Shown here one piece after another: positions 5,395-49,835 of a stretch of 64,000 nucleotides of DNA. Source of the stretch: Bacteroidales bacterium (GTDB lineage: Bacteria; Bacteroidota; Bacteroidia; Bacteroidales; F082); the NCBI GenBank assembly GCA_017427985.1, contig JAFRRS010000004.1:62001-126000 (forward strand), in the 5' to 3' direction. The translations under genes and the position numbers were made by a program. The notes under the pieces are model-generated. The model saw only the letters and a list, made by a program, of their open reading frames with translations, searched no databases and had not been told where the DNA came from. Positions within the stretch are counted from its first letter, which is position 1. Each line of letters opens with the position of its first letter.

Positions 5395-8300
5395 TTATTT
5401 GTTGTTTTCTTCATTTATAATTTCCTCAGCAATACGCTCAGCTTGTTTCAGCACCGTTTCAGTTGCAAGTTGTTGCATATCAGGCGGATAGCCATATCTG
5501 CGCAAAAGCCTTTTCACCGCCACTTTCATCTTCGCCCGCACATTTTCCTTGATTGTCCAATCGATAGTGGAGTTTTTGCGGATAGTTTCGGTCAAAACAA
5601 CCGCCAATTCACGAAGTTTGTCCTTACCCATCAATTCCTTGGCACTTTCGTTGTCGGCAACAGCTGAATAAAATGCATATTCGTATGTTGTAAGCCCCAT
5701 ATTTTCGGCATCTTTGTCCTTTGCAACGATAGTTTTACTCAATTTGATAAGCTCATCGATAACTTCCGCCGCTGTGATGATTTTGTTATGATAACGAGTT
5801 ATGGTCCCGTCCAACATCTCCATCAATGTTCTTCCTTCAACCACATTGAATTTCGACATAACTTTTATCTCATTTTCCAACAATTTTCTAAGAACTTCCA
5901 AAGCTATGTTCTTGTGTTCCATATCTTTAAGTTCCATCAAAAATTCATCTGAAAGAATGGAAATATCAGGTTTTTTAATGCCCGCTGCATCGAACAAATC
6001 TATTACTTTTTCAGAAACTAAAGCTTTGTCAATAACTTGACGAATCGTGGTCTCAATTTCTTCATCTTTACGACCTGTACCTGTCTGGTCAAATTTACAG
6101 AGACGCGCTTTCACAGCTTGGAAAAATGCAACCTCGTCTTTCACATCCATAGCGGCATCCTGCGGAATCGCCAACGCAAACGCTTTACCCAAAGCTGTCA
6201 CCTCATTAACAAAACGTTTCTTGCCATCATCCAAACCTAAGATGAAATCCTCGGCTTTCAAAATCCAAGAGAGTTTCCCAGAAGTGTCCGCAGTGAAATA
6301 TTGTTTATAGTCGAAACCGAAGAACATCTGCTGTACAATCTCCAGTTTTTCCTGCATCAAAGCCACGGCCTGTTCCTGCTGTTGGGTCGGTTCGCCCCTA
6401 CCTCCAGAATCGGAATAGAACGACAAAGCTTTCTTTAAATCTGCCGCAATTCCAAGATAATCAACGACTAAGCCGCCTGGTTTGTCTTTATAGACACGGT
6501 TCACACGTGCGATTGCCTGCATCAGGTTATGACCCTGCATCGGCTTGTCGATGTACAAAGTGTGCAGGCAAGGAACATCGAAACCTGTCAGCCACATGTC
6601 ACGAACAATAACGAGTTTCAGCTCATCGTTCGGGTCTTTCATCCTGTCAGCCAAAGCACGACGTTGTTCCTTGGTAGTGTGATGTTTTGCTATTTTTGCC
6701 CCATCCGATGCCGACGATGTCATCACGACCTTTATAGCACCTTTTGAAAGATCATCAGAATGCCATTCGGGACGCAATTTGACGATTTCTTCATACAAAT
6801 CGGCGGCAATACGACGGCTCATCGCCACAATCATCGCCTTTCCTTCAAACACCTTCTGGCGTTCCTCAAAATGACCGACAATGTCTTTCGCTATGTTTTT
6901 CAATCTGTTAGGACTGCCGATAAGAGCCTCAAGTTGTGTCCATTTCGCCTTGGCTTTTTGGACATCGTTCATGTTGTCGGTTTCCAGTTCTTTATCAAGG
7001 TCTTGCACCAACTGACGACCTTCTTCGCTTAATTCGACCTTAGCGAGACGGCTTTCATAGAAGATACGCACCGTGGCACCGTCTTCAACGGCTTGCGCAA
7101 TATCGTAAACATCGATATAATTTCCAAAAACTGCCGGAGTGTTTTTATCCGTCAATTCAATAGGAGTGCCTGTAAAACCGAGATATGTGGCATTGGGCAA
7201 AGCATCACGCAGATATTTGGCAAAGCCGTATTTTATCTCAGAACCGATAACCTCATCGGCTTCATTCTTCACATCAACAGTCTTGGCTTTGAAACCATAT
7301 TGGGTGCGGTGCGCCTCGTCAGCAATAACTATAACATTACTACGTTCGGTCAACGTCTCGAAAGTGTTGCCTTCCTCGGGTTGAAACTTCTGAATCGTTG
7401 TGAAAATCACACCTCCCGACTGCACTTTAAGCAAACTCCTCAAATGCTCGCGACTCTCCGCCTGAACAGGTGTCTGCCTCAACAGCTGCTTCGACCCGAC
7501 AAAAGTTTCAAATAATTGATTGTCAAGGTCGTTTCTGTCTGTAATGATAACGATTGTAGGATTATAAAGCCTATGAACTATTTTTCCGGTATAGAAAACC
7601 ATGGTTAGCGACTTGCCGCTACCTTGCGTATGCCATACAACACCTGCGCGATGGTCGCCTTGAAGCTGTTCCGAAACTGTTTTCAATCCATAATTAGCCG
7701 GCGATTCATGTACCATCCAGCAACCATTGATGCCTGTTGCCCTCAAAGTCGATTCAACCGCCTTGTTAACTGCATAATACTGATGATAAGCTGCGATTAT
7801 TTTGACCGTTTTTATCGTAGTGAGACCTGTTTTAAGGTCCTCATGCTTTTGTTTTTCAAAAACAGTAAACGAATTGACAAGGTCGAGCAAGGTATCCTTA
7901 CGCAACATTCCGTTGACAAGAACTTCCAATTCACTCACAAGATGCGAGGCGATGTTCTCTCCATCGTCGCTTTTCCATGCTGTGAAACGGCTGTATCCTG
8001 CCGAAAGCGAGCCTGCCCGTGCTTCCAGACCATCTGAAATGACAACAAGCGCATTGTATGTGAATAGCGATGGTATCTGCTGTTTGTAGGTTTCAATTTG
8101 ACGATACGCGCTTTGCAATGTGGCGTTCTCATCGGCAGCGTTTTTCAACTCAAACACCACCAAAGGCAAGCCATTCACAAACAGAACCACATCCGGACGA
8201 CGGTTATGGCCATTTTCAATTATTGTGAACTGGTTGACCACCGTAAACTCGTTGTTCCACGGGTCGTTGAAGTCGATAAGCCAAGCCCTCTCGCCACGCT

Positions 8301-8619
8301 CCACGCCGTCTTTGGTAATTACAACCGGAATACCTTCGGTAAGCATACGGTGAAACGTCTCGTTGTTTGCCAAAATATCCGGCGAACTGATACGCATCGT
8401 TGTCTTCACCACCTCATCCTGCACCAGCCACGGCAACGACGGATTGAGTCGTTTTACTGCCTTTTCCAACTTATCAAACAGCACAACATCCTCAAAGCTG
8501 GCACGCATCGGATTTTCGCCATCAGGTGCAATGTCGGGACCATAAAGGTATTGATAGCCTTTGGCTTTCAGCAGGTCGATGAGCATCTGCTCTATATCGG
8601 ATTCATGGAGTGGTGGCAT
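5395..8619 (-). CDS. hsdR: Type I restriction endonuclease subunit R
   Basis: 1074 residues, normal for HsdR. The N-terminal nuclease carries RRPD (D143) and FELKN (E157, K159). The SF2 translocase follows, with Walker A TQGSGKS at about 331-337, IADEAH at about 432-437, FTGTP, MIVAMSRRIAADLYEE and the arginine finger region QAIARVNR. It cleaves and translocates DNA in complex with HsdM and HsdS. The start (ATG 8619) lies one base after the PIN gene stop, and msrA follows after one base. So hsdR is the fourth gene of the XRE-ImmA-PIN-hsdR-msrA unit and is separated from hsdM/hsdS by about 9 kb. Confidence 0.96.
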   Translation of the reverse strand: MPPLHESDIEQMLIDLLKAKGYQYLYGPDIAPDGENPMRASFEDVVLFDKLEKAVKRLNPSLPWLVQDEVVKTTMRISSPDILANNETFHRMLTEGIPVVITKDGVERGERAWLIDFNDPWNNEFTVVNQFTIIENGHNRRPDVVLFVNGLPLVVFELKNAADENATLQSAYRQIETYKQQIPSLFTYNALVVISDGLEARAGSLSAGYSRFTAWKSDDGENIASHLVSELEVLVNGMLRKDTLLDLVNSFTVFEKQKHEDLKTGLTTIKTVKIIAAYHQYYAVNKAVESTLRATGINGCWMVHESPANYGLKTVSEQLQGDHRAGVVWHTQGSGKSLTMVFYTGKIVHRLYNPTIVIITDRNDLDNQLFETFVGSKQLLRQTPVQAESREHLRSLLKVQSGGVIFTTIQKFQPEEGNTFETLTERSNVIVIADEAHRTQYGFKAKTVDVKNEADEVIGSEIKYGFAKYLRDALPNATYLGFTGTPIELTDKNTPAVFGNYIDVYDIAQAVEDGATVRIFYESRLAKVELSEEGRQLVQDLDKELETDNMNDVQKAKAKWTQLEALIGSPNRLKNIAKDIVGHFEERQKVFEGKAMIVAMSRRIAADLYEEIVKLRPEWHSDDLSKGAIKVVMTSSASDGAKIAKHHTTKEQRRALADRMKDPNDELKLVIVRDMWLTGFDVPCLHTLYIDKPMQGHNLMQAIARVNRVYKDKPGGLVVDYLGIAADLKKALSFYSDSGGRGEPTQQQEQAVALMQEKLEIVQQMFFGFDYKQYFTADTSGKLSWILKAEDFILGLDDGKKRFVNEVTALGKAFALAIPQDAAMDVKDEVAFFQAVKARLCKFDQTGTGRKDEEIETTIRQVIDKALVSEKVIDLFDAAGIKKPDISILSDEFLMELKDMEHKNIALEVLRKLLENEIKVMSKFNVVEGRTLMEMLDGTITRYHNKIITAAEVIDELIKLSKTIVAKDKDAENMGLTTYEYAFYSAVADNESAKELMGKDKLRELAVVLTETIRKNSTIDWTIKENVRAKMKVAVKRLLRRYGYPPDMQQLATETVLKQAERIAEEIINEENNK

Positions 8620-8620
8620 A

Positions 8621-9130
8621 TTATATAAGATTTTCCGGTATGTATTTTGTTATATCTATATTTGGCAACTTACTACCATTTGCTTGCACATCTTCAACAA
8701 ATTTTTTGCAATCATCCTCTGTCATTATACCACGTTTATATGCATAATACAAGAAGTCGAGCGTTGTCAAATATGTGATTCTTTTTTGTTTGCAATAATC
8801 TTTAATATCTCTGATATTACTACTTCCTATCACATTATTGGTGAAACGGCAGTATGACATGCAGGCACTTTCACCTTTGCCCCTCGTTTTAGAAAGCTTG
8901 GCATATTCAAATAACATTTCACCAGAAGGGCTAAACGCTTCCATTTTAATATTTTTCAACAATCTTATCTGATTATCCAACTGATTTTGAATAGGAAACA
9001 CTTCTTTATACACCACATCAAGAATCACATGCTCAAATTCAGGCAAGATTTCTGGAAGCATGCTTAAACGCTCCGCTTCGCAAAAATGAATCAACACATC
9101 AGCATCCAGCACTATCTTTACTTTTTCCAT
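8621..9130 (-). CDS. PIN-domain putative ribonuclease toxin
   Basis: 169 residues. The opening strand VLDADVLIHF carries the first acidic residue (D9, with D11). GKGESACMSYC supplies the central Glu of PIN domains. IGSSNIRDIKDYC and LTTLDFLYYAYKRGIMT correspond to the later acidic positions and the final helices. Known PIN proteins in such loci are Mg-dependent RNases acting as toxins. The gene overlaps the upstream ImmA gene by 32 bp and abuts hsdR downstream, so all three are co-translated. The SDD..(A/S) motif common in VapC is replaced by SSN, so this is a divergent branch and activity is not assured. Confidence 0.65.
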   Translation of the reverse strand: MEKVKIVLDADVLIHFCEAERLSMLPEILPEFEHVILDVVYKEVFPIQNQLDNQIRLLKNIKMEAFSPSGEMLFEYAKLSKTRGKGESACMSYCRFTNNVIGSSNIRDIKDYCKQKRITYLTTLDFLYYAYKRGIMTEDDCKKFVEDVQANGSKLPNIDITKYIPENLI

Positions 9131-9833
9131 ACCCTATAACATTTAGCAGTTCGAGATAATGCCCTTCGGATATTTTTTCTTCTTCAAACAACTTCCTTGC
9201 TTTTGAACCAAAATCACCGATTACAAGCCGTTCGCCATCACCTTTTTTATATAATTTGCCATCATAACCTCGCAAAGCCGCTTCTTTCGTTATGCTAAGA
9301 TTTCTCAATTCATCAGCATATTCCTGACCGATAACATGTAATTCTTTCAACCGCAAAACCATTGTGGTATGCGAAATGCCATAAAGATGCTCCAAACGAA
9401 GAATAGTGTCTATGCTAACTTCTTTTTTCTTCAACTCCTCTGCAGGAATGATATTCATCACGCCTTCTTTAGGCATCAGCAACGCTGAAGCGAACATATT
9501 GGCGGAACGTTCTGAAGGTTCAGTAAAAAGTGGGTTATAAAAATGCGGTTGTGGATTCTCATCAAAATAAAGATGATACAGTTCATGTGCGATGGTAAAA
9601 TGCTGGGCTCCCGGTGTCACCTTGCTATTCACAAGCACAAACCTGTTTTTCTTGTCAGGAGTTATGAGCGATAATCCAAAAATATTATCCGACAGCGGAC
9701 GAAAAACTGTCAATATATTAAGCTGGCGAAGGACTGTCTCTGTGTTGACGGGTTCGCTGCTCGAGATACGCAGATGTTCGCTGCGCATTTTTGCCGCAAG
9801 GTTCTCGGCTGTTTCAAAATCAATCTTTTTCAT
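9099..9833 (-). CDS. ImmA/IrrE-family metallo-endopeptidase
   Basis: 244 residues. The zinc motif HELYH (in FTIAHELYHLYF, about residues 84-88) and the downstream ERSANMFASALLMP, whose Glu-Ala/Asn-Phe-Ala helix supplies the third ligand, are typical of ImmA/IrrE peptidases. A helical region after residue 150 (RLEHLYGISHTTMVLRLKELH) is the usual substrate-facing extension. The family cleaves or inactivates its partner XRE repressor after a cue such as DNA damage. The start overlaps the XRE stop by 4 bp (ATGA), which implies a matched pair. It probably relieves repression of the operon containing the PIN gene and hsdR. Confidence 0.88.
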   Translation of the reverse strand: MKKIDFETAENLAAKMRSEHLRISSSEPVNTETVLRQLNILTVFRPLSDNIFGLSLITPDKKNRFVLVNSKVTPGAQHFTIAHELYHLYFDENPQPHFYNPLFTEPSERSANMFASALLMPKEGVMNIIPAEELKKKEVSIDTILRLEHLYGISHTTMVLRLKELHVIGQEYADELRNLSITKEAALRGYDGKLYKKGDGERLVIGDFGSKARKLFEEEKISEGHYLELLNVIGYGKSKDSAGC

Positions 9834-10165
9834 TCTTCAAGAAGTCTTTCCATTTTCATATAATTCAAAACAATATTCTTGAAGTCGGCAACCTCTTTCA
9901 TATCGTCAATATTGAGGTTGTCGGCACGGAAAGCACATGCAAGCATGCCTTTGAGCGCATTCTGGTCTTCTTCAAAAAACAGACTGAGATCACAGCCGAA
10001 CAGCAATGCCGCTTTTTCAAGAACATCCAATGGAGCTTCTCGGTCTCCACTTTCATAATTAGAATAAGTGGAACGATTAATGCCCATAAACTCGGCTACA
10101 TTTTCCTGATTATAGCCGTTTGCCACACGCAAAGATTTCAGATTTTTACCAATAACAGATTTCAT
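9830..10165 (-). CDS. XRE-family helix-turn-helix regulator
   Basis: 111 residues. The HTH spans about residues 6-60: NLKSLRVANGYNQENVAEFMGI followed by the recognition part NRSTYSNYESGDREAP. The C-terminal about 45 residues are helical and likely dimerise or contact ImmA. The gene is first of a five-gene unit and overlaps immA by 4 bp. A perfect 12-bp inverted repeat (arms 10213-10224 and 10250-10261) covers the -33 element of its promoter, consistent with autorepression. It is probably a repressor controlled by ImmA cleavage. Confidence 0.9.
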   Translation of the reverse strand: MKSVIGKNLKSLRVANGYNQENVAEFMGINRSTYSNYESGDREAPLDVLEKAALLFGCDLSLFFEEDQNALKGMLACAFRADNLNIDDMKEVADFKNIVLNYMKMERLLEE

Positions 10166-10190
10166 ACAATTTTAAATTTTTATTGTTTAT

Positions 10191-10222
10191 CAAATATTTA
10201 CCCTTTTCATATCCGTGGCAAA
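10191..10222 (-). promoter_or_regulatory. Promoter of the XRE-ImmA-PIN-hsdR-msrA unit
   Basis: On the minus strand TTTG lies at 10219-10222 and AATATTTG at 10191-10198, separated by 20 bp. This fits the Bacteroidota -33 TTTG / -7 TAnnTTTG arrangement with one mismatch. The -33 box lies inside the proximal arm of the inverted repeat, so repressor binding would block the sigma factor. Confidence 0.5.
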
Positions 10223-10261
10223 ATTACAAATAATTTTTGAAATAAGAACATTTTGCCACGG
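10213..10261. promoter_or_regulatory. Operator-like inverted repeat upstream of the XRE gene
   Basis: Perfect 12-bp arms CCGTGGCAAAAT (10213-10224) and ATTTTGCCACGG (10250-10261) are separated by a 25-bp AT-rich spacer. The arms begin about 48 bp upstream of the XRE start codon. The centre-to-centre spacing of 37 bp suggests two dimer sites or a looped tetramer rather than one simple dimer site. Confidence 0.65.
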
Positions 10262-10292
10262 AAAAATTTTTGTTTTTATTTCCAACAACCGT

Positions 10293-10421
10293 TTATGTCT
10301 GCTCCATACGGATAGCGAACCTCTCCATCTGAGCAGAGATATCCGCAATCATCCTCATCGCCTTCGCCGACAGTGTGAATGGAGATTTGTAGCCGTTATA
10401 TGTGTCTTTTTTTCGTGACAT
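10293..10421 (-). pseudogene. Fic-family protein remnant (N-terminus only)
   Basis: An ATG at 10421 opens a 42-codon frame ending in TAA at 10293-10295. The peptide runs MSRKKDTYNGYKSPFTLSAK and continues with IADISAQMERFAIRMEQ. In Bacteroidota Fic proteins this is the N-terminal helix preceding the DGLRLRK..N.I..I..SLAIEGN region. Everything after it, including the HPFxxGNGR active site, is missing, and the XRE operator begins about 30 bp downstream. The remnant still has a plausible promoter (TACTTTTG, 10468-10475). I read it as a fic gene cut short by the junction that brought in the XRE cassette, though a small functional peptide cannot be excluded. Confidence 0.6.
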
Positions 10422-10467
10422 TCGTTGGTTCTCTTTGCACGTTCCGTCAAATCATTCCATGGTTTTG

Positions 10468-10475
10468 CAAAAGTA
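10468..10475 (-). promoter_or_regulatory. -7 promoter box in front of the Fic remnant
   Basis: TACTTTTG on the minus strand, 47 nt upstream of the remnant ATG and just after the Avs-like gene stop (10515). It could give a transcript that reads through into the XRE operon. The rest of 10166-10514 outside the remnant and the inverted repeat shows no other gene. Confidence 0.4.
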
Positions 10476-10514
10476 ATTAATTCTCAAATCAATTCAACTG
10501 TCATTGTCTCTATA

Positions 10515-13500
10515 TTAACATGCCTTCTTGTAAGTTATCACATTCTCTCTGATAAAATATGCATTTGAAGAACCTAACTCAACCATTTTATTCAATATCC
10601 ACAAATAGCTCTCTATTAGTTTTTTATCACTTTTAATAGCAGAAATATGATCATAGAACAGCCTTTTTATCATCCTTTCTGCATATGTAGTCAACAAACA
10701 CTCACATAACTTCGGATTGGATTTTAGAATTTCAACAATCCAACTTATTCCATCGGGCATAAATGCTTTATTACCGAATGTCGAAAAAACTTTTATGGCT
10801 GAATTGATGAATGTTTTGCCTTTTCCTAGCAACAGCTTTTTATAAAACTCTTTTTGGTTCTCTAGCACGCTCCAATCACTTTCACTAGGGACACTGCTTC
10901 CATCAAAAAAAAGCAATCTTGTATCCAACATGAGTTTTTCAATTAATGGACACATACCATCTTCAGGCATCATCTCATAAAACACATTCCACAATGACCA
11001 AAAGTTTTCAATCTGTTTTTCATACACTTTCTCTTGAATCCCAAACACCCCATTTTGATGTAATTTGATTACAGTATTATCTAAAACATAATTGACGAAT
11101 TCCAACAATTCATCTCTACCATATCGATCAGTTGATTTATGTTTGAGTACAGATTCTATCAACATTTTAAACAATGGAACAGAGCACTTCAAATCCAAAT
11201 CCAAAAAACACAACGCCAAATACTGTACTATGTCCATTTTAACCTCATAATAGTTTTGACTAATAATTACGTCCTCTTTATCTTTCCCCATATCCTCTAT
11301 TAGGATTGGCAACACATGCATAATAAAACTAAAATAATCTGTATCATCAGAATGGATAGGGGTCAACGTAAACACTCGATATAAAACGAACCTATCGTAT
11401 TTATCAATTGATATTCCCGTCAAATCCAGTTTCAACTCTAAATCAGATACTTTTTTACAAATAAAATCATCCTCATCCTGAATATCAGATCCTTTTGCAT
11501 AATGGGTGTAAGGATGCATTTTTCTATATTCAGCCAATTCAATTAAGACAAGCCAAACTCTTTTGGCTATTTGGGGATAATGAGCAGAAAAGACTTCTCT
11601 AAAATATTGAATGTTTTTGTCAGATTCAAAATCCGCAAACGGAGCAATTAACATATACACTAGAAGTACTACTATCGCATTCACATCGTCTTCGGCATCC
11701 ATATTTTGCATCAACAAATGGAATGAAGATAGTGCAATTTCATTTTCGGTCACATTGTATTTGGGCACCATGCCATATTCATAGTGATAAGCATCCTGAA
11801 CAATGTTTACACCAGTATCATATAATTTCCTAATACACCATTCTTTTTGTGTTTCAGACATTTTTTCCGAAAAATCCCGCAAGCCAATATAAGCTAGCGT
11901 AACAGGCCTATCCAACAATCTCATTTCTAGAGGAACATCTTCTTTATCTTTTTTCGAATAATACAAATAACACTCTATCCAATCCTCAAAACCAAACAAA
12001 TCATTATCCTCCCACGCCTTTTGCATTAAACTTGCATATTTTGATGATTCTTGGTAGCAATCACACTCGTTTTGATTCTCTTTGATAAAATCCTTGATTA
12101 CCTCGTTATACTTTGGTGCAACCAAGAATCCACCAAGTTTGGGGTCATATTCTCCAATCTCATGGTTTCTAATATCCATTTCCAACAAATTTTTCTCCCA
12201 AACAATATCACCTAGCTCTTGGCTTTTCTGTTTTAGAACATCAAAAACATGGAACAATTCTTTATTCAAAGTCCTAATATTATATTGATAATCCTGAACA
12301 AAGCCCAACATTCCTCTATAATACTTGGTCCTATGAGGAAGTTTATTCGATTCCCACCGTTCTTTCTGAGCAAATGGGATTTCAGAATCCGCAGGTGCCA
12401 AAGAAGAACTTTCTTGCAATGTTCTACTTAAGTCCCAATCATAAAACTCTTTTATAGAAAAGAGAGGTAACATAGCGGTTCCTACTTCTTTAGGATATGC
12501 CATGGTAACACTCGACAACACAGCTAAAGGTGCAACATTATTGCTGTTTCTTATCACATAATCAAACACATAATTCAGGATACTCCGACTTGTTTCATTC
12601 TTCAGTTCTGCTATTTCCAGCAAATACTTTTCAAGGCTCATTAGCAAAGATTCAAGCAAGTGGCTCGTAACGCTTAGGGCTCTATATGCAAACCATAACT
12701 CCGCACATGCATATTTTGAAGAAACTGTTTGATCATCAATAACAATATCCACCTTTGTGACATCAAATTTATATCGAATACCAGGAGCATTTACGTAAAA
12801 ATCAACAGCATAATTTATAAATCCAACAATAAAAGCCAAACCTTCTTTTAGATGATACTTTAATAAATTGTAAAAAGGAGTCTTATATATTCCAGATGGA
12901 AAATAACGAGCATGTTTTATCCCCCAACACTCATCCTCATTAAGTTGATGAGGTAAAGTAAACAATTGACGATCTGAAAGGCTCTCCTCTATCGGCGTAT
13001 ATTTCCATTCTTTCCATGCTACTTCGACAACAAGTTCAGGCAATTCATTTACAAAATATTTATTGCCGACTCCAGAGAGGACTCTGTCCTTAACCTTTTG
13101 ATAGAAAAATTGCAGTTTCCATTTATTCTTGTTTTTTTCATGCCCATAACACCTTTTGACAAGAGAGATTGTTTCCTCTTTAGAAACAGCTACCAAATCA
13201 AACAGAATAGCTATAAGACTCTTTTCATAAAACTCATTATTATCTAACGCCAGTGTCCCGTTCTCAATTTCTCCAATATAATGCAACACAATAGACTTGG
13301 CAGCGCTCTGTTCATCCAAACAAACATCATCATATTTCAGCAATAGTTTATTATACCAATCAACCATGAAACTGATAATTGACAATCTGATTCCATCCAA
13401 CTGCTCAACATGATTACTTATAAAGCACAAAGCACTCTTCCAACCATCTCCAATTGGTATCAAAATAGCATTGTCACCAATAACAGCAGTCTCCTTACAA

Positions 13501-15566
13501 CAAGTTTTGATAATATGCAAACACTTAGCAAGAAAAGTGCCGTTGTTCAATAACAGATCCTTTTCAAAGGCTTCAAAAAAATAAGCACAATTATTCGATC
13601 TAAAAACAGATATCAATAATTCATCTGCCCAATACCTATCTATTGTGCTGTCTGAAAGCAAAACTTTTATTAATTCGACCAATTTATCATTGTTGTCAAT
13701 TAAATAGTCTTCAACCCACAAGCGGAAGGCTCGTCTAATGGCTGGCTCGTGGCCTAAATTCACGAAAAAGTCTTCTGGGTTCGAATACTCGTCAAATTTT
13801 TCTGAAACATATCTTTCCAATGCCCAATCCTCCAAAATATCATGCGTTGGAGAATATCTTCTATTGGTGTCCTCTTGAAAAACAATTTCATCGTTTTCCA
13901 AACATACAAGTGCATCTGCATCTATGGAATCATCTGGCTTTGTGAAAAGCTTCATTTCTTTGGCTCTTTTCACAGCAATGTTCATGAAAGCTTTTTCTCT
14001 CTTTATTGGCAAACCATCTTTTGTGTTTTGCACATCAACAACCAAAGCATTCCATAACAAGTCTTTAAAACCAGAAACAGAGAGATTCGACAAATCGTTT
14101 TTTGCTTTATTAAAAGCTCGCAATGCAAAATCCAGATATTTTGGGCATTGCAGCAGTTGCTTTATTTTTTCATTTTCTAATAATGGGTTTAAATTTGGAT
14201 AGTTTTGAGACACCGTCAACAATTCATTTTCATCAAGTTGCGGTATCTCTATTATTTGTTGACTAGCACAACCAATATCAAACTTTAATGAAAGAAGATC
14301 CAATGCATATTTTCGAGATGCCATTATGACCCTAACATCTTGGCAATTTTTAATTATTGTCAAAAATTGACTAAAAGCGCATTCTGGATCCGACTCTAAA
14401 AGTTTCTCAAGACTATCAATAAAAACAATCTTCTCTTGAATTAGCGAAACGCATGAAAAGATGTCGTCGATGGACTCATTGACACCTATACTTGAAAAAA
14501 CATTTGCAAAAGCTGGCACACTAAACTGATCGGCCCTGAAAACAAACACACTTGCATTTGGAAAGTCTTTCTTCAACAAGTCTTTAACCGCTGCGGTTTT
14601 CCCAACACCTGGCTTGCCAATAACGATTGTAATTTGAGAATGATTGATCGCATCCGACATTATCTCCATCAATTCAGTTCTCTGAAAATGTATTTCCTTA
14701 TCACCAAATCCAATCGTTGTTTTAATAGGTTTCAGTATTGCCTGACTATCATTTTGCAATTTCTTTATAGCAGCACTATATGGGGAAATTTGAGTTAAAT
14801 CAAAGTACCTGTAAAAGTCTTGTTCTTTTATACTCTCCAATGTAACACTTCCACCATTTGGATTAAGGCACGACACATAAGAATAAATGCTATTCCAAAC
14901 ATCTTCCTCGTTCAATGCCGACAAATCATTCTTACACAACTTGATGAGATTCAAGAAATTAGTCTTACAGATACTCCCCTCGTTCAAAAAATCATATTCT
15001 AAAACATCAACACATTTAACAAACTCCCACAAAATCTCATCGGCCAGTTCAGTATTATTATTTGCTTCCTTAAGAATCGTTCGAAATACGTCTAATTGTT
15101 CTCGTTTCGCTTTTATGCGGTTTACTTCTGAAAGAAAATCGGATGCACATGAATGTGTATTTGCCCAATTAAAAAGTGTTTTCAGATGATTTCTATCATT
15201 TTTTGTCAAACCTCCGCAAACAACAATCAGTTTGTCTTTCCTCTTATTAAACGAAGTGTTATTAAAATCTTTCCAAAAAGCAGTCAACACTTCTCTCCAT
15301 AATGCCGATTTTAAAGTAAATGCTATTTCATGTTTGATTTGAATCAGCAAACGATACTCATCATTTACAGATTTAGCAACAATCATCAAATCATCAGTCT
15401 CAAATCCTTGGTTCGTGACTTGTAATGCAATTTCTGCTATTGTACTTGATGGCACACAAGGAACATCGCCACCTACCAACATAGTTACAAGGAATGCGGT
15501 TTGCACATTTTGTTCAAAATTAGTACCGCCACCACCCTTTTGAAAAGCACTTCCTTTTTCTGACAT
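10515..15566 (-). CDS. Avs-like STAND NTPase with N-terminal Cap4/DUF4297-type nuclease
   Basis: 1683 residues in three parts. The N-terminal ~220 residues start GGGGTNFEQNVQTAFLVTML. They contain ETDDL (D58/D59) and, about 17 residues later, QIKHE (Q76, K78), a D...QxK nuclease site as in Cap4/DUF4297 domains. A P-loop NTPase follows, with Walker A GKPGVGKT (317-324), Walker B IVFIDSLEKLL (about 380-390) and the STAND-type MASRKY (about 416). SPTHDILEDWALERYV marks the winged-helix end near residue 600. The last ~1000 residues are helical and repeat-like, suitable for target sensing. Known Avs proteins of this build detect phage proteins and then cut DNA. It starts 6 bp after the hsdS stop, so it belongs to the hsdM-rhuM-hsdS transcript. 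The exact Avs class is undetermined. Confidence 0.72.
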   Translation of the reverse strand: MSEKGSAFQKGGGGTNFEQNVQTAFLVTMLVGGDVPCVPSSTIAEIALQVTNQGFETDDLMIVAKSVNDEYRLLIQIKHEIAFTLKSALWREVLTAFWKDFNNTSFNKRKDKLIVVCGGLTKNDRNHLKTLFNWANTHSCASDFLSEVNRIKAKREQLDVFRTILKEANNNTELADEILWEFVKCVDVLEYDFLNEGSICKTNFLNLIKLCKNDLSALNEEDVWNSIYSYVSCLNPNGGSVTLESIKEQDFYRYFDLTQISPYSAAIKKLQNDSQAILKPIKTTIGFGDKEIHFQRTELMEIMSDAINHSQITIVIGKPGVGKTAAVKDLLKKDFPNASVFVFRADQFSVPAFANVFSSIGVNESIDDIFSCVSLIQEKIVFIDSLEKLLESDPECAFSQFLTIIKNCQDVRVIMASRKYALDLLSLKFDIGCASQQIIEIPQLDENELLTVSQNYPNLNPLLENEKIKQLLQCPKYLDFALRAFNKAKNDLSNLSVSGFKDLLWNALVVDVQNTKDGLPIKREKAFMNIAVKRAKEMKLFTKPDDSIDADALVCLENDEIVFQEDTNRRYSPTHDILEDWALERYVSEKFDEYSNPEDFFVNLGHEPAIRRAFRLWVEDYLIDNNDKLVELIKVLLSDSTIDRYWADELLISVFRSNNCAYFFEAFEKDLLLNNGTFLAKCLHIIKTCCKETAVIGDNAILIPIGDGWKSALCFISNHVEQLDGIRLSIISFMVDWYNKLLLKYDDVCLDEQSAAKSIVLHYIGEIENGTLALDNNEFYEKSLIAILFDLVAVSKEETISLVKRCYGHEKNKNKWKLQFFYQKVKDRVLSGVGNKYFVNELPELVVEVAWKEWKYTPIEESLSDRQLFTLPHQLNEDECWGIKHARYFPSGIYKTPFYNLLKYHLKEGLAFIVGFINYAVDFYVNAPGIRYKFDVTKVDIVIDDQTVSSKYACAELWFAYRALSVTSHLLESLLMSLEKYLLEIAELKNETSRSILNYVFDYVIRNSNNVAPLAVLSSVTMAYPKEVGTAMLPLFSIKEFYDWDLSRTLQESSSLAPADSEIPFAQKERWESNKLPHRTKYYRGMLGFVQDYQYNIRTLNKELFHVFDVLKQKSQELGDIVWEKNLLEMDIRNHEIGEYDPKLGGFLVAPKYNEVIKDFIKENQNECDCYQESSKYASLMQKAWEDNDLFGFEDWIECYLYYSKKDKEDVPLEMRLLDRPVTLAYIGLRDFSEKMSETQKEWCIRKLYDTGVNIVQDAYHYEYGMVPKYNVTENEIALSSFHLLMQNMDAEDDVNAIVVLLVYMLIAPFADFESDKNIQYFREVFSAHYPQIAKRVWLVLIELAEYRKMHPYTHYAKGSDIQDEDDFICKKVSDLELKLDLTGISIDKYDRFVLYRVFTLTPIHSDDTDYFSFIMHVLPILIEDMGKDKEDVIISQNYYEVKMDIVQYLALCFLDLDLKCSVPLFKMLIESVLKHKSTDRYGRDELLEFVNYVLDNTVIKLHQNGVFGIQEKVYEKQIENFWSLWNVFYEMMPEDGMCPLIEKLMLDTRLLFFDGSSVPSESDWSVLENQKEFYKKLLLGKGKTFINSAIKVFSTFGNKAFMPDGISWIVEILKSNPKLCECLLTTYAERMIKRLFYDHISAIKSDKKLIESYLWILNKMVELGSSNAYFIRENVITYKKAC

Positions 15567-15572
15567 ATTTTT

Positions 15573-16652
15573 CTATACCATTAACTCCCCTCCCATCAGC
15601 CTCGGCAGCAACCTGTCACGAGTCTGGACAAGAGTGTTTATTTGTTCATTGTTGTTTTCCATTTTCTTCAATAATCCTTCCATTTGTACGGTCATTGACA
15701 ACAATTCATCATCAGAAGGTATTAAAACCATTGCTGTATCCAAATCACCTCGCTTAATATGTCCCATTGTAGTAGCATGACTTTGGGCTATTGAAATGAA
15801 TTCATTAAGATGATGTTTGCACCAAAAATAGTAAAACCACTTTGGATATTTATCGGAAGTAACCTTAAATAGATGCTGATTCAAAATACAATCTTCACCA
15901 TCCCAAATTTTAACCATCAATGATGCTGACCAAGCAAAAATCACATCTCCTGCATGAACAATATATTCATCTCCAACCTCAGTTGTTGCCCAGTCGGAAT
16001 CGCTTCCTATTCCACTTGATAATTCACGGATTTTTAGGACTGGCAATTTGTCTATTCCGTTCTTCGCTGGATATTTTTGGCAAGCCAAACCGTTCAAAAA
16101 TATTGCAATGGAGCTAAGCGGTTTCTCCTCCCACTCTTCCTTTGCCTCAACCACAAACCACTGCCTGAACAGCGTTTCAGCCATTGCTTCGAGAGTAGCG
16201 TTCTCGCGACGCAAAAGGTCTATTTTGTCGTCTAAAGAGGTGAGAATGGATGCGATGCGGCGCTGCTCATCTATTGAAGGAACAGAAACTGGTAATTCAT
16301 GAATATGATTTCTATTTAATGAAGGTACAGCACTTCCTGTATTTAATTGGGTGAAATCCATTGTTTTAAGCAAATAATACATAAACTTAGGATCGTTGCC
16401 TTTAAAGTCTTTGATATAAAGTACAGTATTATGTGCCCAATATGCTTTTGGATAATAATGAGGAATGCCTATGTTGCCACTTCTACCTATGGTAACTCCC
16501 GGACCATTTAATGTGTATTCATTGTGAAACCCAATCACTCCATTAGAACCCGCAACAGGAATATCACCATCTACCATTTTATCCTTTGGCAAATCGTGTC
16601 CTCTTTGGAATGTCACAACCTCTCCCAACTTATATTCTTTCCAGTCACTCAT
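15573..16652 (-). CDS. hsdS: Type I restriction specificity subunit S
   Basis: 359 residues from ATG 16652 (MSDWKEYKLGEV). Two target-recognition domains are visible: about 1-125 (GVTIGRSGNIG, AHNTVLYI) and about 170-300 (LNGLACQKY, VIFAWSASL). Each is followed by a conserved helical spacer: EQRRIASILTSLDDKIDLLR and the C-terminal NNEQINTLVQTRDRLLPRLMGGEL. HsdS gives the HsdM/HsdR complex its bipartite DNA target. Its start lies 2 bp after the rhuM stop, and the Avs-like gene begins 6 bp after its stop. No inverted second hsdS copy is present, so there is no sign of shuffling here. Confidence 0.95.
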   Translation of the reverse strand: MSDWKEYKLGEVVTFQRGHDLPKDKMVDGDIPVAGSNGVIGFHNEYTLNGPGVTIGRSGNIGIPHYYPKAYWAHNTVLYIKDFKGNDPKFMYYLLKTMDFTQLNTGSAVPSLNRNHIHELPVSVPSIDEQRRIASILTSLDDKIDLLRRENATLEAMAETLFRQWFVVEAKEEWEEKPLSSIAIFLNGLACQKYPAKNGIDKLPVLKIRELSSGIGSDSDWATTEVGDEYIVHAGDVIFAWSASLMVKIWDGEDCILNQHLFKVTSDKYPKWFYYFWCKHHLNEFISIAQSHATTMGHIKRGDLDTAMVLIPSDDELLSMTVQMEGLLKKMENNNEQINTLVQTRDRLLPRLMGGELMV

Positions 16653-16654
16653 AA

Positions 16655-17671
16655 TCAATCCTTTTTTCTGTTTTTTATCTCGTCTTCCAGTTGCTTCAGT
16701 TCTTCGGCTTCCTCTGCATCGGCTTCTTGTGCCGCAAAAGCCTTGCGTCGCTGGTCAAACTCGGCATAAACAGCTTCCACTTTGTCTTCCATCTGCTTTG
16801 TAGAAACTTTACCAGCTCCCTTCAGTACAGCTTTATTTTGGAATCCCAAAAGCGAATCAACATTTCCTCGCCAATAATTAAGTGTCAAATCCTGTCTTTC
16901 CTTCACACGCAGTTCGGCTGAGTCGAGAAACAGCACTGTAAGACGGTTTAAAGTATCAATTTCATCTGAAGTAAGATAATTCTTGGCAATATAAATATCC
17001 TGTTTGCGCACCACATTGCCCTTCCACGATGTGAGCGCCATATTAGGCAAGGAGGCATCAGCACGGCTCACTATGATTTCGGCAGCAGTCTTGTTGGTTA
17101 CGGCATATAACAATTTGTTCTGCGTTTCAGCAAAAAACATTTGTGTCGCCTTATCGGTTTTATCATAATCGCTGCTTAGCATCATAAGGTCGCGAATTTT
17201 CTGATAAAATCTTTTTTCACTTGCGCGAATATCGCGTATGCGTTCGAGAAGCTCGTCAAAATAATCGGGACGCCCATCGGGATTTTTCAACCGCTCATCA
17301 TCAATCACATAGCCTTTTACAATAAATTCCTTAAGATTCTTGTTCGCCCAAATACGAAATTGCGTGCCACGCTGGCTACGTACACGAAATCCAATGGCAA
17401 GAATCATTTCTAACGAATAAAACTTGGTGCTGTATTTTTTGCCATCTGCGGCAGTTATTAAGTAATCCTTAATAACTGAATCAACACTTAACTCCTTTTC
17501 TTTCAATATATTAGCTATATGAATATTGATATTTGGCACAGAGGTGTCAAAAAGTTCAGCCAATTGTTTTTGGTTCATCCAAACAGAACCATCTTTAGCG
17601 TATAATGTAACACTGACTTTGCCATCGTCAGTATTATAAATTATGATTCCATTCTTTTCCATAATATTCAT
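16655..17671 (-). CDS. rhuM: RhuM-family protein inside the type I operon
   Basis: 338 residues. The N-terminal part (VWMNQKQLAELFDTSVPNIN, then KYSTKFYSLEMILAIGFRVRS and RGTQFRIWANKNLKEFIVKG) is the conserved RhuM/Bro-N-like region. The middle has NKTAAEIIVSRAD and MALTSWKG, and the C-terminus is a charged helix ending NRKKD. RhuM was first described beside Salmonella pathogenicity genes but is most often found within type I R-M loci; its biochemical role is not established. It overlaps hsdM by 4 bp, so it is co-translated with the methyltransferase. Confidence 0.9.
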   Translation of the reverse strand: MNIMEKNGIIIYNTDDGKVSVTLYAKDGSVWMNQKQLAELFDTSVPNINIHIANILKEKELSVDSVIKDYLITAADGKKYSTKFYSLEMILAIGFRVRSQRGTQFRIWANKNLKEFIVKGYVIDDERLKNPDGRPDYFDELLERIRDIRASEKRFYQKIRDLMMLSSDYDKTDKATQMFFAETQNKLLYAVTNKTAAEIIVSRADASLPNMALTSWKGNVVRKQDIYIAKNYLTSDEIDTLNRLTVLFLDSAELRVKERQDLTLNYWRGNVDSLLGFQNKAVLKGAGKVSTKQMEDKVEAVYAEFDQRRKAFAAQEADAEEAEELKQLEDEIKNRKKD

Positions 17672-19191
17672 CCATTAATATTAATTTTTTCCAAATTCTC
17701 CAAAATCAATTTATTTAATCTCTCTTCTTCTTTCAATTGTTCCTCAAATTCAGCTTTCAATGCGGTGAAACGCTCAACAAAGTTGAAGTCGTCTTCCTCT
17801 TCTGGCAAGCCCACATAACGTCCTGGTGTAAGCACATAATCAAGCTCCGCCACGCGGCTCACTGGCACTGATGCACAGAAACCAGCGATGTCCTGATAAT
17901 CGGCAGATTCATCACGCCACAGATGATAGGTTTTGGCTATTTCCTGAATGTCTTCCTCCGAGAGTTCGCGCGTACGACGATTGATGAGATGGCCTTTGTT
18001 GCGCGCATCAATGAAAAGGATTTCTCCGGCTCGTTTTGTGCGGTTACGTGTCACAAACCACAGGCAAGCAGGAATCTGCGTGTTCAAAAACAGTTTGGCA
18101 GGCAAATTAACTATGCAGGCAATCATTCCTTTGTCAATCAACGCCTTGCGGATGTCTCCCTCGCCGCCTGTTTTGGATGTCAGCGAGCCTTTGGCCAGCA
18201 CAAAACCTGCCTGTCCCGATGGTGCTAAATGGTAGATAAAATGCTGTATCCAAGCAAAGTTGGCATTGCCCACAGGTGGCACTCCATACTGCCAACGTGC
18301 ATCGCTGCGCAGCTGGTCTCCACTCCAGTCGCTGTCGTTGAACGGCGGATTTGCCATCACGAAGTCGGCTTTCACATCGCGGTGCGCATCGTTGAGGAAC
18401 GAACCTTCGGTGTTCCACTTCACCTGCGAGGCGTCAATGCCACGAATAGCCAAATTCATTTTACACAAACGCCATGTAGTCTGGTTGCTCTCCTGTCCGT
18501 AAACCGAGATGTTCTCAATCCGTCCCTGATGTTCTTTCACAAACTTCTCGCTCTGCACAAACATACCGCCTGAACCGCAACAAGGATCGAGCACACGACC
18601 TTTATATGGCTCCAACATATTGACCAATAATTCCACGACACTGCGCGGCGTGTAGAATTGTCCTCCCTTCTTGCCTTCCGCCAAGGCGAACTCACCAAGG
18701 AAATACTCGAACACATGGCCTAACAAATCTGCACTTTTGGTGCTGGTATTTTGCAAAGTGGAGTTTCCTATCAGATCAATCAACTCACCCAAACTCGTCG
18801 GGTCAAGTTCCGATCTGGAATATACCTTTGGTAAAATGCCTTTTAGTGTTTTATTCTCTCGCTCGATGACATCCATTGCATCATCAATATATTTTCCGAT
18901 TTGCGGATTCTTAGCCACCGAAACAAGATACGACCAACGTGCATTGGCCGGCACATAGAACACGTTTTCTGCCATATATTCCTCACGGTCTTCAGGGTCG
19001 GCTCCATCAGCTTGCTGCTTCACCAACTCATTATACAAACTTTCAAATGAGATGGATATGTATCTCAAAAAGATGAGTCCCAACACAACATCCTTATATT
19101 TAGCTGCATCAATATTCTTACGTAATTTGTCGGCAGCCTTCCAAAGTTGCTTTTCCAATGGTTCTTCCTGTATTTCCTTTACTTTTGCCAT
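17668..19191 (-). CDS. hsdM: Type I DNA adenine methyltransferase subunit M
   Basis: 507 residues. The N-terminal HsdM helical domain (LWKAADKLRKNIDAAKYKDVVLGLIFLRYI) is followed by QFYTPRSVV, the SAM motif LDPCCGSGG (201-209) and the catalytic NPPF (281-284). The C-terminus is a coiled helix (EEQLKEEERLNKLIL) that would meet HsdS. It methylates adenine at the HsdS-specified site. It is the first gene of the hsdM-rhuM-hsdS-avs unit and is preceded by a good promoter box. Confidence 0.97.
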   Translation of the reverse strand: MAKVKEIQEEPLEKQLWKAADKLRKNIDAAKYKDVVLGLIFLRYISISFESLYNELVKQQADGADPEDREEYMAENVFYVPANARWSYLVSVAKNPQIGKYIDDAMDVIERENKTLKGILPKVYSRSELDPTSLGELIDLIGNSTLQNTSTKSADLLGHVFEYFLGEFALAEGKKGGQFYTPRSVVELLVNMLEPYKGRVLDPCCGSGGMFVQSEKFVKEHQGRIENISVYGQESNQTTWRLCKMNLAIRGIDASQVKWNTEGSFLNDAHRDVKADFVMANPPFNDSDWSGDQLRSDARWQYGVPPVGNANFAWIQHFIYHLAPSGQAGFVLAKGSLTSKTGGEGDIRKALIDKGMIACIVNLPAKLFLNTQIPACLWFVTRNRTKRAGEILFIDARNKGHLINRRTRELSEEDIQEIAKTYHLWRDESADYQDIAGFCASVPVSRVAELDYVLTPGRYVGLPEEEDDFNFVERFTALKAEFEEQLKEEERLNKLILENLEKINING

Positions 19192-41432: not shown

Positions 41433-44400
41433 TTACTTTACAACTGTAATGCGTTTGACTGCGCTACCGTTTTCAGTAATGATGTTCACCATGTAAACAC
41501 CGGCCTCGAACTGGCTCATGTCGATAACCATTTCGTCAGTATTCACATTCTGGTTGTACACCATCTGACCCATTGCATTGTAGATGCTGATCTGAGTCAT
41601 TGCTGTAGCCTCGATGTGGAGGTCGCCGCTTGTTGGGTTAGGATAGATTGCGTTGACAATCATGTTCTCCTCAACACCATCGGTATGTGTGTACTGGACT
41701 GTAACCATTTCTGATTCGCAGTTATCATACTCGGCAACGATACCGAATGTGTATGTATCACCTACGGTGAGACCATAGATGAACACGCTCTCTTCTGGTG
41801 TTGAACCGAGATACTGGCCATCAACATAAACACCGTATGAAACAGCATCTTCGTTGCCAACCCACTCAACCATTGCACCATCACCGTATGTTGCGTCATC
41901 ATAGTAGTAAGCTGTCAAGTTGGTTACAGGATCGCAAACAACTGTACCGCCGACTTCAACTGTCTCGCATTCTTCGCATGACATTGCATAGTCGCTGTAG
42001 ACAACTCTTACGCAATATTCATGTTCGCCTGCTTCAACACCTGCGTCAACGTATGATGTGCCAGAAACTGGAGCCATTGTGATAGGCTCGCCGTCACGCC
42101 AAATCATCACGCCGAGGATGTCGCCTGGCTGTGGTTGTGGACCTGGACCTGGAGCGTCAGCGTCAAGTTCATAGATTGCCACGAGGTTAGGATCCTGCTG
42201 TGAGTTACCGAAGAAGCATGTCTTGCCATCGTATGCTGCAATGAAGCAACCACCGGCAATACCTGTGCAACCAGGTGCTGTAGCTGAGAAGTCTAACACT
42301 GGGCTTGCGCTGATTGTGTTATTTGCAATGTTGTAATCGTAAACCTTGCAATCGCTGTTTGGCTGGCAGAACAGATAGAGGTGTTCAACGCCATCAGCAT
42401 CCGTGTAGTATGCTGAACCGTATGCGCTTGTTGGAGCTGCACCGTTCTGGACGAGAGCGCCACTTCTGTCATACAATGCCAATGTTGACCAGTTGCCTGA
42501 CCAGAAGCCGTCACGTTCAGGATCGTATGTGATGTGACGTGATGTCAAACCTGCGCAGTTGATTGTGCCAACCAATGTGCGTGTTGTGAAGTCTAAGATG
42601 AAGATCTGTGTAGCACCTGATGTACCATAGAAGTACTCACCGTCGGTTGTGAGGTCGCGGATACCTGTTGCACCAGCGATGTTGAAGCCTTCGATGAAGT
42701 TGCCTTCAAGGTCATACTGATAGAATGTGTAACCACCTGTTGGTGCTGACTGCCAGCTTGCTGTGTAGATGTACTCGCCATCTGTTGCAACTGCCTGCTG
42801 ACCGGCACTTGTGCCTGAGAAGTTGTAAACAAGATCCCACATGTCTCTTTCACCCTTAGCTGGTGTGAACTCAATGTCATCAACGCACATGATGTACTGG
42901 TCGTTGCAGTTGAAGTGACGGATAGCAATGTACTTGTTGCCAGCGTGTGCGCTGAGGTCGGCTGTAAACTGATACCATGTACCGAGTTTTGCACCTTCGC
43001 CATCGCGTGACTCGCGACCACCGTTTGCTCCACCCTTCTTGGCTGTCAATGTCCATTCCTGAACCATTGTCCAGTCTGTACCATTGTCAGAAACTGCTAC
43101 TCCGAAGTGATCTGCCGGATAGCTTGCGTCTGTTGCTGCTGCCCAGAATGATAATGTTGTGCCGTTAGCAATTGCCTGCTGACCCATTACGAGATACTCG
43201 TCTGGTGTGAGAGCGCCTGCTCCATTGATGTATGAACCGCTGCAGATAGCGTTTGTACCTGTTCTGTACCAGTCAAGTGTTAAGCTTGCATAGTATGTCC
43301 ATGTTGTTGGAATATTGCTTGTCAAGCACCATGTGTAACCGTCGTTGTTAGCATCGACAATTGTCCAGTCTGCTGGCAAACCGTTTTCAAAGCCTTCTGT
43401 CCAACCTGTACCTGGTTGTGGACCTGGACCTGGTGTGCCGTTCAATGTCCATGTGAGTGTGACATCGTTGCCGTTAGCTGTGACATCGTATGATGCTGTA
43501 CCAGCGTAGTTGCTGCATGGAGCGTATGTCCAATCGTAGCTCATCCAGTCACCCATACCTGTTGCATAGAATGCTGCAACTGCTGTGGTGTGCTCTGAAC
43601 CTTCTTCCATACCTTCAACTGGCATCTGATAGAATGGATATTCTGTCTCGCCAAGGTATGTGTTGTCGCACATGACTTTGTAGTACAATGGAGCACGATC
43701 ACCCTTGTTTGCAACACCAAGCTCAACGTCGTCAATCCAGATTTCGTATGCGTCGTAGTTGACATCGTGGAATGCGATGTAAACTTCCTGACCTGCGTAT
43801 GCACTCAAGTCGATGCTGTGTGAACGCCAGTTCTCATAACGAGTGTTCATGTGACGTACTGCTGCACCGCCGTTGCCTGTGCCCTTGGCACCACCACTCC
43901 AAACCTGTGTGAAGTCTGCTGCTGTTGGGTTGTCAGCTGTTGCAACGCACACTGAGAAGTTCTCAGGATAGTTGTCGTTAGCATTGTCAGCAAAGAATGT
44001 CAATGTTGAACCATTCTCGATAGCGTACTTCTGTGGTGTGTAGAGGTAGCTGTCTGTGTCGAATGCACCAACATAGTCAACGTATGAGTAGCACATTGCA
44101 AAGCCTGTACCACCGTGTGCAAGTTCTGTGTAGTCATAGCCACCGAGGTTGTCATCGCTGTGGATCCATTCACCACCGTCTGCATTGACTGTAAGAACGT
44201 TCCAGCCGTTCAAACCGCCTTCAAAGCCTTCTGTGAATGAGCCGCCACCTGGTTGTGGACCTGGACCTGGTGCAGGTGCTGATCCGCCTTCCCACATTGC
44301 CCAACCTGTTGGTGATACGTACAAACCTTCAACTGGAGCAACGATCTCTTCAAGAACGAATGAGAACTCTTCCTCATCTTCGTCGATGACCAAAATACCG

Positions 44401-47400
44401 TCGATTGGTGTGTAACCATCCGGTTCAATCTCAAGAGCATATTCACCCTTGCGGAGCTCGATGGTCATTGTACCTGTCTCGTCGAATGTGTATTCTTCTT
44501 CGAAGTCAATGCCTGTGATCTCCATGTCGATGCCAGCTGGTGACTGACCGTTGTTCAAAGCGAGGTTGAATGTCACGCTTGAAACCATATCCTTGTCAAT
44601 AACATTTGACCAGAGAATCTCTGACATACCGTCGCCTGTTGGACCTGGTGTCGGAGGAACTGGAGCTGAACCTGCGTAAGTGATTGTTACGTCGTCAATC
44701 CAGATTTCGTATGCGTCGTAGTTCACATCGTGGAATGCAATCCAGATCTCCTGGCCTGCGTATGCTGCCAAGCTGACCTCGTGTGAACGCCAGTTCTCAT
44801 AACGGTTGTCTGAACGACGTACTGTTGCGCCACCGTTGCCTGTGCCCTTGGCACCACCACTCCAAACCTGTGTGAAGTCGCTTGCTGTTGGGTTGGCTGC
44901 TGTTGCAACACAAACTGAGAAGTTCTCAGGATAGTTGTCGTTAGCATTGTCTGCAAAGAATGCAATTGATGAGTTAGCATCAACACTGTACTTCTGAGGT
45001 GATACGAGATATGCATCTGTATCGTATGCTCCGTCATAGTCAACGTATGAGTAGCACATTGCAAAGCCTGAACCTGTGTGTGCAAGTGTTGTGTAGTCAT
45101 AACCACCGAGGTTGTTATTGCTGTGGATCCACTCGCCACCGTCTGTGTTGACGATGATATTTGTCCAGCCTTCTAAGCTACCGTTTTCAAATCCGAATGT
45201 TGCTGTCTCACGGCTGCGGTCTGTTGGTGCATAGCCTTCGTATGTGGCTGCAACGCCCCACTGATACATACCGTATGGCAATGTTGCCCATTCTTCGTCT
45301 GTGTATTCGTATGTCTCAGCATCGATACCTTCAGCAATTGTTGTGACTTCAGCTAAAGCCTCACCGTCAATAACATTTCTACGATAGAGGTTGTAGCTTA
45401 CGAGTGAACGGTCGCCACGTCCTTCGAGTTTTGTACCGCCTGTTGCCAATGTGATATCGTCAACGTTCAAGATGAACTGGTCTGTGCAGTTGAAGTGGCG
45501 GATAGCAACCCAGATGTCTTGGCCTGCGTATGCGCTGAGGTCGACTGCGTACTGATACCATGTGCCTTGTCTGTCACCACGAACTGCACTGTAAGTTTCA
45601 GCACCGCGGTTGCCCTTGGCTGTCATTGTCCATTCCTGGATTGTTGTGAATGCTGCTGCTGTAGCTGTTGTTGTTGAAACAGCGACACCGAAGTGCTCAG
45701 CTGCATAGCTTGCATCCTGTGCGCATGCCCAGAACTGGATCTGTGCACCGTTCTCAGCTGAAATCTGTGCTGGAGAAACAAGGTAGTTATCTGGTGTCAA
45801 AGCTGCACCTGTCTGGTTAGCGTATGAACCTGAAATAACGTATGCCTCTGAAGCATCGTGACCTGTTCCTGACAAGTTCACGCCTGAGTTGTGGTAGATA
45901 CCAGGATTTGCACTTGATACCCAACCGTTACCGTCGTTGTCAGCGTCGATTGATGTCCAACCCATCATTGTGTCGTCATCAAAGTCGTATGTTGTTGCAC
46001 CAACGACTGGTGGAAGTGGTTCCTCATATCTGTAGAGTGTGATGTCGTCGACGTATGCGCAGTCGTCATTGCTGTTGACTGAGCTGTCTTTTGCATACTG
46101 CCACTTGTAGGTGTGTGTGCCTTCTGTTACGTCGAACTCTTTGTATGCGTATGCCTGCTGGCCGCTGATAGCTGCACCCTTCTCAACACCGTCGATGAAG
46201 AAGTGGAACTTGTCGTAGTTAGCCTCTGAAGAAACTGCTACCCAGAAGCCCATCTTGCCATCGTAAGGAACATCAACTGTCACCTCGATTTCTGATGTGC
46301 CGCTTGCAATGCCTTCGCATGTCGACTTGATAGCGTATGTGCCATCGTGTGGGTTAGTTGTTGTAATAGCCCATGGATATGTTGCAGGCAATGTGAACAT
46401 CTCTGGAATCTCACCTTCTTCGAAGTCGACAACCACCTCAGATGGTGTCCATGACCATTCAACATTAACGCCTTCTTCTGCCTCTGTAGCTGTAATCATG
46501 CTGAGAGGATAGTAGAACTCGCGTGTGATGATGTCTTCAACTTCTGTCAACTCATTGTAAACAACTGTGATGACAACACCTTCATTCTGATATCCTTCTG
46601 TGACGATACCGATAGCATACATACCAGCGAGGATTTCGCCTTCATACAAACCGGTCTCATCTGATGTGAATGAGAACTCCTGTGCGTTGCCGTGCTCATC
46701 AACACCGATAGCCACGATAGTTGCATTAGCGATTGGATGCTCAACGTCTAAGTCATAAACGTGACCTGAAACTGAACCTTCGCCTGTCATGTAAACAGTA
46801 ATAACTTCTGATGGCATTGACTCACCAGCGTCATAAACTGCTGTGATCTGGAAGTCGTAGCCTTCCATGTTGTATTCAAGACCTTCAACACTGTATGTGT
46901 TTGCTGTGATAGGTGTCTCGTTAACCTTTACACCGTCCATATAGAGGTTGTAACCCTGGAGTGTACGGTTGGCTTCCCATGTGAACACTGCTGCATCACC
47001 TGGATAGAGCTCGTCGCTCTCTACTGCGAAGCCCTCAACTGGGTCGATAGGTGTTGAGAAAGCGATGATCTCACCTTCTGTAGTACCGGCAGCGTTACGT
47101 GCGTTAACCTGCATGAAGTATGTCTGGTTGTTCTCGAGATCCATCAGGAATGCTGACTCTACGAGTTCGTCTGTCCAGTCGATCAATGCTGTTTGTGGAG
47201 GATACTGTGTGCCAACCAAAACCTGCATCTCTGTGGTGTAGTCACCAAGGATCCATTCTGCGAGATATGGAGTCTCTACAAATCCCTCTGCATCTTCTGG
47301 AGATACGATAACTGCCTGCTCAGGAGCTGGAATCTCTGCAACCGCCATGTCAACATTGAATTCTTCAGTTGTTGAAGCAACTGCTACATAGTATGTACCT

Positions 47401-49721: not shown

Positions 49722-49778
49722 GTTAGAAAAATTTAGTTAATAATATTGTTAATTTCTCAATTTTTCATTTTTAACTCC

Positions 49779-49816
49779 AATAAGGAGCGTCACTTTTTAC
49801 GGTGACGTTCCTTATT
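49779..49816 (-). terminator. Hairpin between the two giant genes
   Basis: AATAAGGAGCGTCAC (49779-49793) pairs with GTGACGTTCCTTATT (49802-49816), 15 bp with one G-T wobble and an 8-nt loop. It lies 20 bp after the stop of the 2272-residue gene. An AT-rich stretch rather than a pure U-run follows, so partial read-through into the 2762-residue gene is possible. Confidence 0.6.
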
Positions 49817-49835
49817 ATTATTAATAGGTGTTCAA

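Follow-up and report, generated by a model that had tools for sequence, protein, structure and literature searches.

The 1683-residue product of an avs gene lodged in a Bacteroidales type I restriction locus is, with a probability of roughly three in four, a self-contained phage sensor of the Avs type that acts through a nuclease, is carried as interchangeable cargo between hsdS and hsdR, and is not dependent on restriction. The locus lies in the window, that is, the whole stretch of 64,000 nucleotides that was analysed.

The avs gene and its operon

The avs4-like reading frame described in the first-pass annotation, at 10515..15566, proved to be intact on the minus strand with an ATG start, and its assignment draws on ORF, profile and fold evidence. 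Homologues align with the product from end to end, and dN/dS over the gene is ~0.19 (against a 74%-identical copy), which together put the frame far beyond chance. Positive selection in the sensor was considered and rejected: dN/dS was below 0.5 in every segment where it was computable, and residues 1201-1600, the most variable part of the protein in several pairs (L007/L008 being the exception), are therefore termed fast-evolving and not positively selected.

Upstream of avs, also on the minus strand, are hsdM (17668..19191), the accessory gene rhuM (16655..17671) and hsdS (15573..16658, with two target-recognition domains), in that order and with overlapping ends. As had been claimed, the end of hsdS stands 6 nt ahead of the avs start codon, and this junction is conserved among relatives (6 nt in L004, 4 nt in L012). 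Co-transcription of avs with hsdS is plausible from the gap and the shared strand; a scan of the window for the strict Bacteroidota promoter pattern gave 3 occurrences against 2.75 expected, which is chance level, and promoter claims are thus not based on that pattern.

On the 3' side, avs is followed by a 349-nt gap, an HTH repressor-like gene (9830..10165; CapH-like by profile matches), an M78/IrrE-like metallopeptidase gene (9099..9833; CapP-like, likewise by profile), a 169-aa accessory ORF adjoining hsdR (8621..9130) and hsdR itself (5395..8619), all on the same strand. The HTH-M78 block, directly before hsdR (8621-10262), is also found in L071 and L079, in the former together with the 169-aa ORF, and a 13-nt perfect inverted repeat with 25 nt between its arms (10212..10262, unstranded), a candidate operator upstream of the HTH gene, lies in a region conserved in both of these loci. 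It is possible that the HTH-M78 genes and the repeat constitute a DNA-damage switch for hsdR. Elsewhere in the window, two giant adjacent ORFs at 41433-56654 (2762 and 2272 aa) carry Cleaved_Adhesin and Por secretion-tail domains.

An Avs4-like receptor with a predicted nuclease head

The product is laid out as an effector (residues 1 to ~255; 14802..15566, minus strand), a STAND NTPase (~260-600; 13767..14788, minus strand) and a helical sensor from ~600 to 1683 (taken as ~601-1683; 10518..13766, minus strand). The NTPase that had been read from the sequence was recovered by profile search as nSTAND3/AAA at residues 295-428 and in the homologue alignment, with the Walker A motif GKPGVGKTA readable in the translation, and the predicted model bears out the ~1000 residues of helical sensor. 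When the whole protein was compared with the Avs profiles of PADLOC, as the annotation had suggested, Avs4 matched over residues 248-1677 (5e-161), and no other Avs profile matched at E up to 0.1. The score of 575 bits against the NCBIfam Avs4 model (NF041815) falls short of its equivalog cut-off of 1500 bits, and the protein is consequently filed as Avs4-like, not as strict Avs4.

Its sole solved relative by sequence is Avs4 (AVAST type 4, from an E. coli plasmid avs4; 8dgf, E 7.5e-73), an entry that, going by its title and PMC12931631, shows Avs4 bound to a phage portal. Homology to it spans the NTPase and sensor (residues ~260-1680), including the whole ~1100-residue helical sensor, at ~24-26% identity (~24% in the sensor), whereas the effector is unrelated in sequence. 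Over 1057 residues the sensor model (mean pLDDT 77) matched 8dgf with Z 29.7, against 11 for the runner-up, which places the C-terminal half among the helical sensors as proposed.

The claim of a DUF4297/Cap4-type nuclease site held in its fold and residues, but not in its profiles. Only chance-like matches were obtained with residues 1-289, both against Pfam (17 homologues, E up to 1) and in a PDB profile search, and Pfam Cap4_nuclease was absent from the genome carrying the window. D58, D59, Q76 and K78 are located as claimed. Together with E18, they show no substitution in 11 homologues (38-93% identity); when the comparison is widened to 17, the same holds for E18, D58, D59 and K78, and Q76 is almost invariant. 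The effector model (mean pLDDT 85) matched Avs3 (Z 14.2), Cap4 (13.5), LmuA (13.4), HerA-DUF4297 (12.9) and Hachiman (11.9), with residues 5-253 best superposed on residues 3-244 of the Avs3 effector domain (8dgc), a match tied with those of Cap4 and LmuA. E. coli Avs4 was not among the fold matches listed, and its N-terminus gave no blastp match to the effector at E 0.01. Residues 1-255 are thus assigned, by predicted fold and conserved residues only, as a Cap4/DUF4297-type nuclease of the PD-(D/E)xK fold. The head shares its fold and conserved E18-D58/D59-Q76-x-K78 with the Cap4, DUF4297, LmuA and HamA superfamily, but differs in being fused to a STAND receptor and in having no Pfam Cap4_nuclease match. 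As for Avs3, its structure was solved bound to terminase, whereas Avs4 was the only one of the PADLOC Avs profiles to match here. An Avs4-like NTPase and sensor joined to a head of Avs3/Cap4 fold together point to an Avs4-type receptor bearing an Avs3/Cap4-type nuclease head, as the models predict it.

In a tree of the NTPase-sensor region, proteins with this head group together (11 rows, 100/100), apart from E. coli Avs4, in a clade that spans Verrucomicrobiota, Flavobacteria, a Hymenobacter plasmid and a Methanoperedens MAG. A more distant Avs4-like relative, L037, has a trypsin-like head, and with the shared-head clade this lets effector exchange among Avs4-like proteins be seen directly. 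The L037 protein (at 8106-12971) overlaps an MBL-fold gene and lies near hsdM, hsdS and GmrSD. The same nuclease head, at 36-37% identity, also occurs in L024 and L025, with no Avs4 sensor match in the portion covered.

Several homologues are broken. In L033 (genome G121), avs lacks 19 nt present in L004 and is split into ORFs of 825 and 688 aa, which could reflect either decay or misassembly; the Akkermansiaceae homologue L003, from a MAG, has an in-frame TAG at codon 312; and the L011 homologue is also split, near residue 284. The deletion in G121 and the TAG in L003 would fit a decaying or inactive avs retained through linkage to the restriction-modification (RM) locus, but with the window copy intact, the gene-wide dN/dS as low as it is and the catalytic residues invariant, that explanation is highly improbable.

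By analogy with Avs3 and Avs4, the helical C-terminal domain would bind a conserved phage structural protein, and binding would drive ATP-dependent assembly of the STAND NTPase. Assembly would in turn switch on the N-terminal Cap4-type nuclease, as its fold and conserved catalytic residues suggest, so that DNA is cut and infection stopped, probably at a cost to the cell. A portal-like ligand is the best guess from homology to Avs4. With only ~24% sensor identity to the E. coli protein the ligand could differ, and the same activation logic might instead be set off by a terminase or by another structural or early phage protein; the high variability of residues 1201-1600 fits such a ligand, and for Avs5 the ligand is an early protein of a jumbo phage (PMC12931631). 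This is possible but the less likely case, as the whole-sensor fold matches portal-bound Avs4 far above all else.

Probable autonomy from the restriction system

The first-pass annotation had further raised a possible coupling of avs to the type I system, with firing once restriction has been defeated. The comparative evidence does not support this. No hsdM, hsdS or hsdR was detected with the window proteins near L003 or L005-L011, within the flanking DNA covered (several of the context loci are MAGs, and for some of them it is short on each side); L005 has RhuM upstream. In L002 (genome G116), avs is intact (1685 aa) while hsdS is reduced to its 3' end and hsdR to a fragment of 196 aa, and the genome has no hsdM orthologue (best match 35%). 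The presence of avs apart from RM neighbours, and its integrity where the RM genes have decayed, argue for a self-contained system that is autonomous from restriction, so far as can be judged from sequence comparison.

A precedent for coupling does exist in PrrC, which is embedded in a type IC locus and triggered by inhibition of EcoprrI (PMC12707154). The position of avs, 6 nt from hsdS in the hsdS-hsdR interval of a type I locus, would suit a protein that likewise kept watch on the type I complex, or on inhibition of that complex, and fired once restriction was overcome. However, exclusive co-occurrence with a type I complex was not seen in the comparison, since relatives lacking RM genes keep avs: Flavobacteria, Akkermansiaceae and Methanoperedens carry the protein with no type I genes in the flanking DNA covered, and it stays intact despite RM decay. 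Moreover, sister genomes have unrelated defence systems in this slot, and the sensor shares homology with that of Avs4, whose structure includes a bound phage portal (8dgf). A guardian role is thus very unlikely, and an autonomous sensor remains the preferred reading. Coupling of avs to the type I locus at the level of expression may nevertheless be compatible with the comparative evidence. A broader proposal, that the locus is a true immune hub in which any hsdS-hsdR cargo takes its cue from the state of the restriction complex or from the HTH-M78 switch ahead of hsdR, is also unlikely, if somewhat less so; were it true, restriction failure or DNA damage would raise or trigger the embedded system, avs included.

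Interchangeable cargo in the type I locus

Among 99 genomes searched, hsdR is present at 77-98% identity in 13 genomes of the genus besides that of the window, with fragments in 3 more. In 14 more loci from the genus, not all of them complete, hsdM and hsdR form a conserved core and the cargo differs. The hsdM-hsdS interval holds RhuM, SLFN, YhcG or little else. Between hsdS and hsdR, an Avs4-like protein is found in the window, L004, L012 and L033, HEPN_Swt1 in L070, SIR2 with HerA in L071, Abi_C in L072, SLFN, Fic, AbiL-like and RloB in L073, a Hachiman-like helicase with a DUF4143 ATPase in L074, an 803-aa protein (matching no Pfam or PADLOC family) with Fic in L075, a CBASS-type cyclase together with SLATT and Fic in L076, HD-CE/HATPase with Fic in L077, an IS200-type transposase in L078, HTH-M78 alone in L079 and AbiU in L080; L012, L033, L076, L078 and L080 reach contig ends, and their cargo lists may therefore be incomplete. 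No plasmid copies of the locus were found. Because so many other anti-phage genes fill the same position in relatives, the restriction locus resembles an exchangeable docking site for avs more than a partner wired to it.

Traces of exchange are also seen in the window itself. Within the gap 3' of avs, the fossil of a Fic gene survives as its 42 opening codons and a stop (10293..10421, minus strand). It was recognised from Fic genes that sister genomes carry in this slot, sharing 73-83% identity with the Fic starts of L073, L075 and L077, where the gene is whole, and 66% with that of L076. The remnant indicates that a Fic gene once stood in the slot, or that the slot recombined with another in which such a gene was present. 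The avs gene is itself a mosaic, with a nuclease of 99% identity followed by a remainder of ~70% identity. Compared with L004, its DNA is 99% identical over codons 1-150 and 57-85% identical after codon 200, the identity starting ~60 nt ahead of the hsdS stop, and the NTPase is nearer to that of L002 (82-89%) than to that of L004 (71-77%). The simplest reading is a crossover close to where effector and NTPase meet. In the slot, avs could share the operon promoter, and the conserved hsd flanks could act as homology arms; comparison of the loci shows it travelling as one of many interchangeable cargoes.

Defence genes embedded in type I loci are already known and are not new in themselves. EcoprrI-PrrC, DarTG2 and TgvAB are located at or near the hsdS-hsdR interval (PMC12707154, PMC12255303, PMC11411939); DarTG2 sits between the two genes, at a site already published as a possible recombination hotspot (PMC12255303), and TgvAB defends without HsdR restriction activity (PMC11411939). 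In contrast to those loci, the one described here takes many cargoes within one genus and retains a fossil of an earlier one, and its cargo in the window is an Avs4-like protein with a predicted Cap4-type effector. In Staphylococcus aureus, an AVAST type II system lies beside hsdM/hsdS and is exchanged with hsdMS (PMC12829572), but it is another Avs type, and it stands next to them in a genomic island instead of inside the hsdS-hsdR interval of one operon. No paper on Avs4 with type I restriction, and no description of this locus, was found in the literature searched. The additions made here are an Avs4-type sensor with a putative Cap4-type head in the hsdS-hsdR slot, a survey of the alternative cargoes across the genus, and signs of exchange in the form of the fossil and the mosaic gene.

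In summary, modular exchange is seen on two scales, with whole systems replaced between the hsd genes and, within avs, a nearly identical nuclease head common to receptors that otherwise diverge. The conserved hsd core makes the locus an easy slot in which to search for untried defence genes in Bacteroidales.
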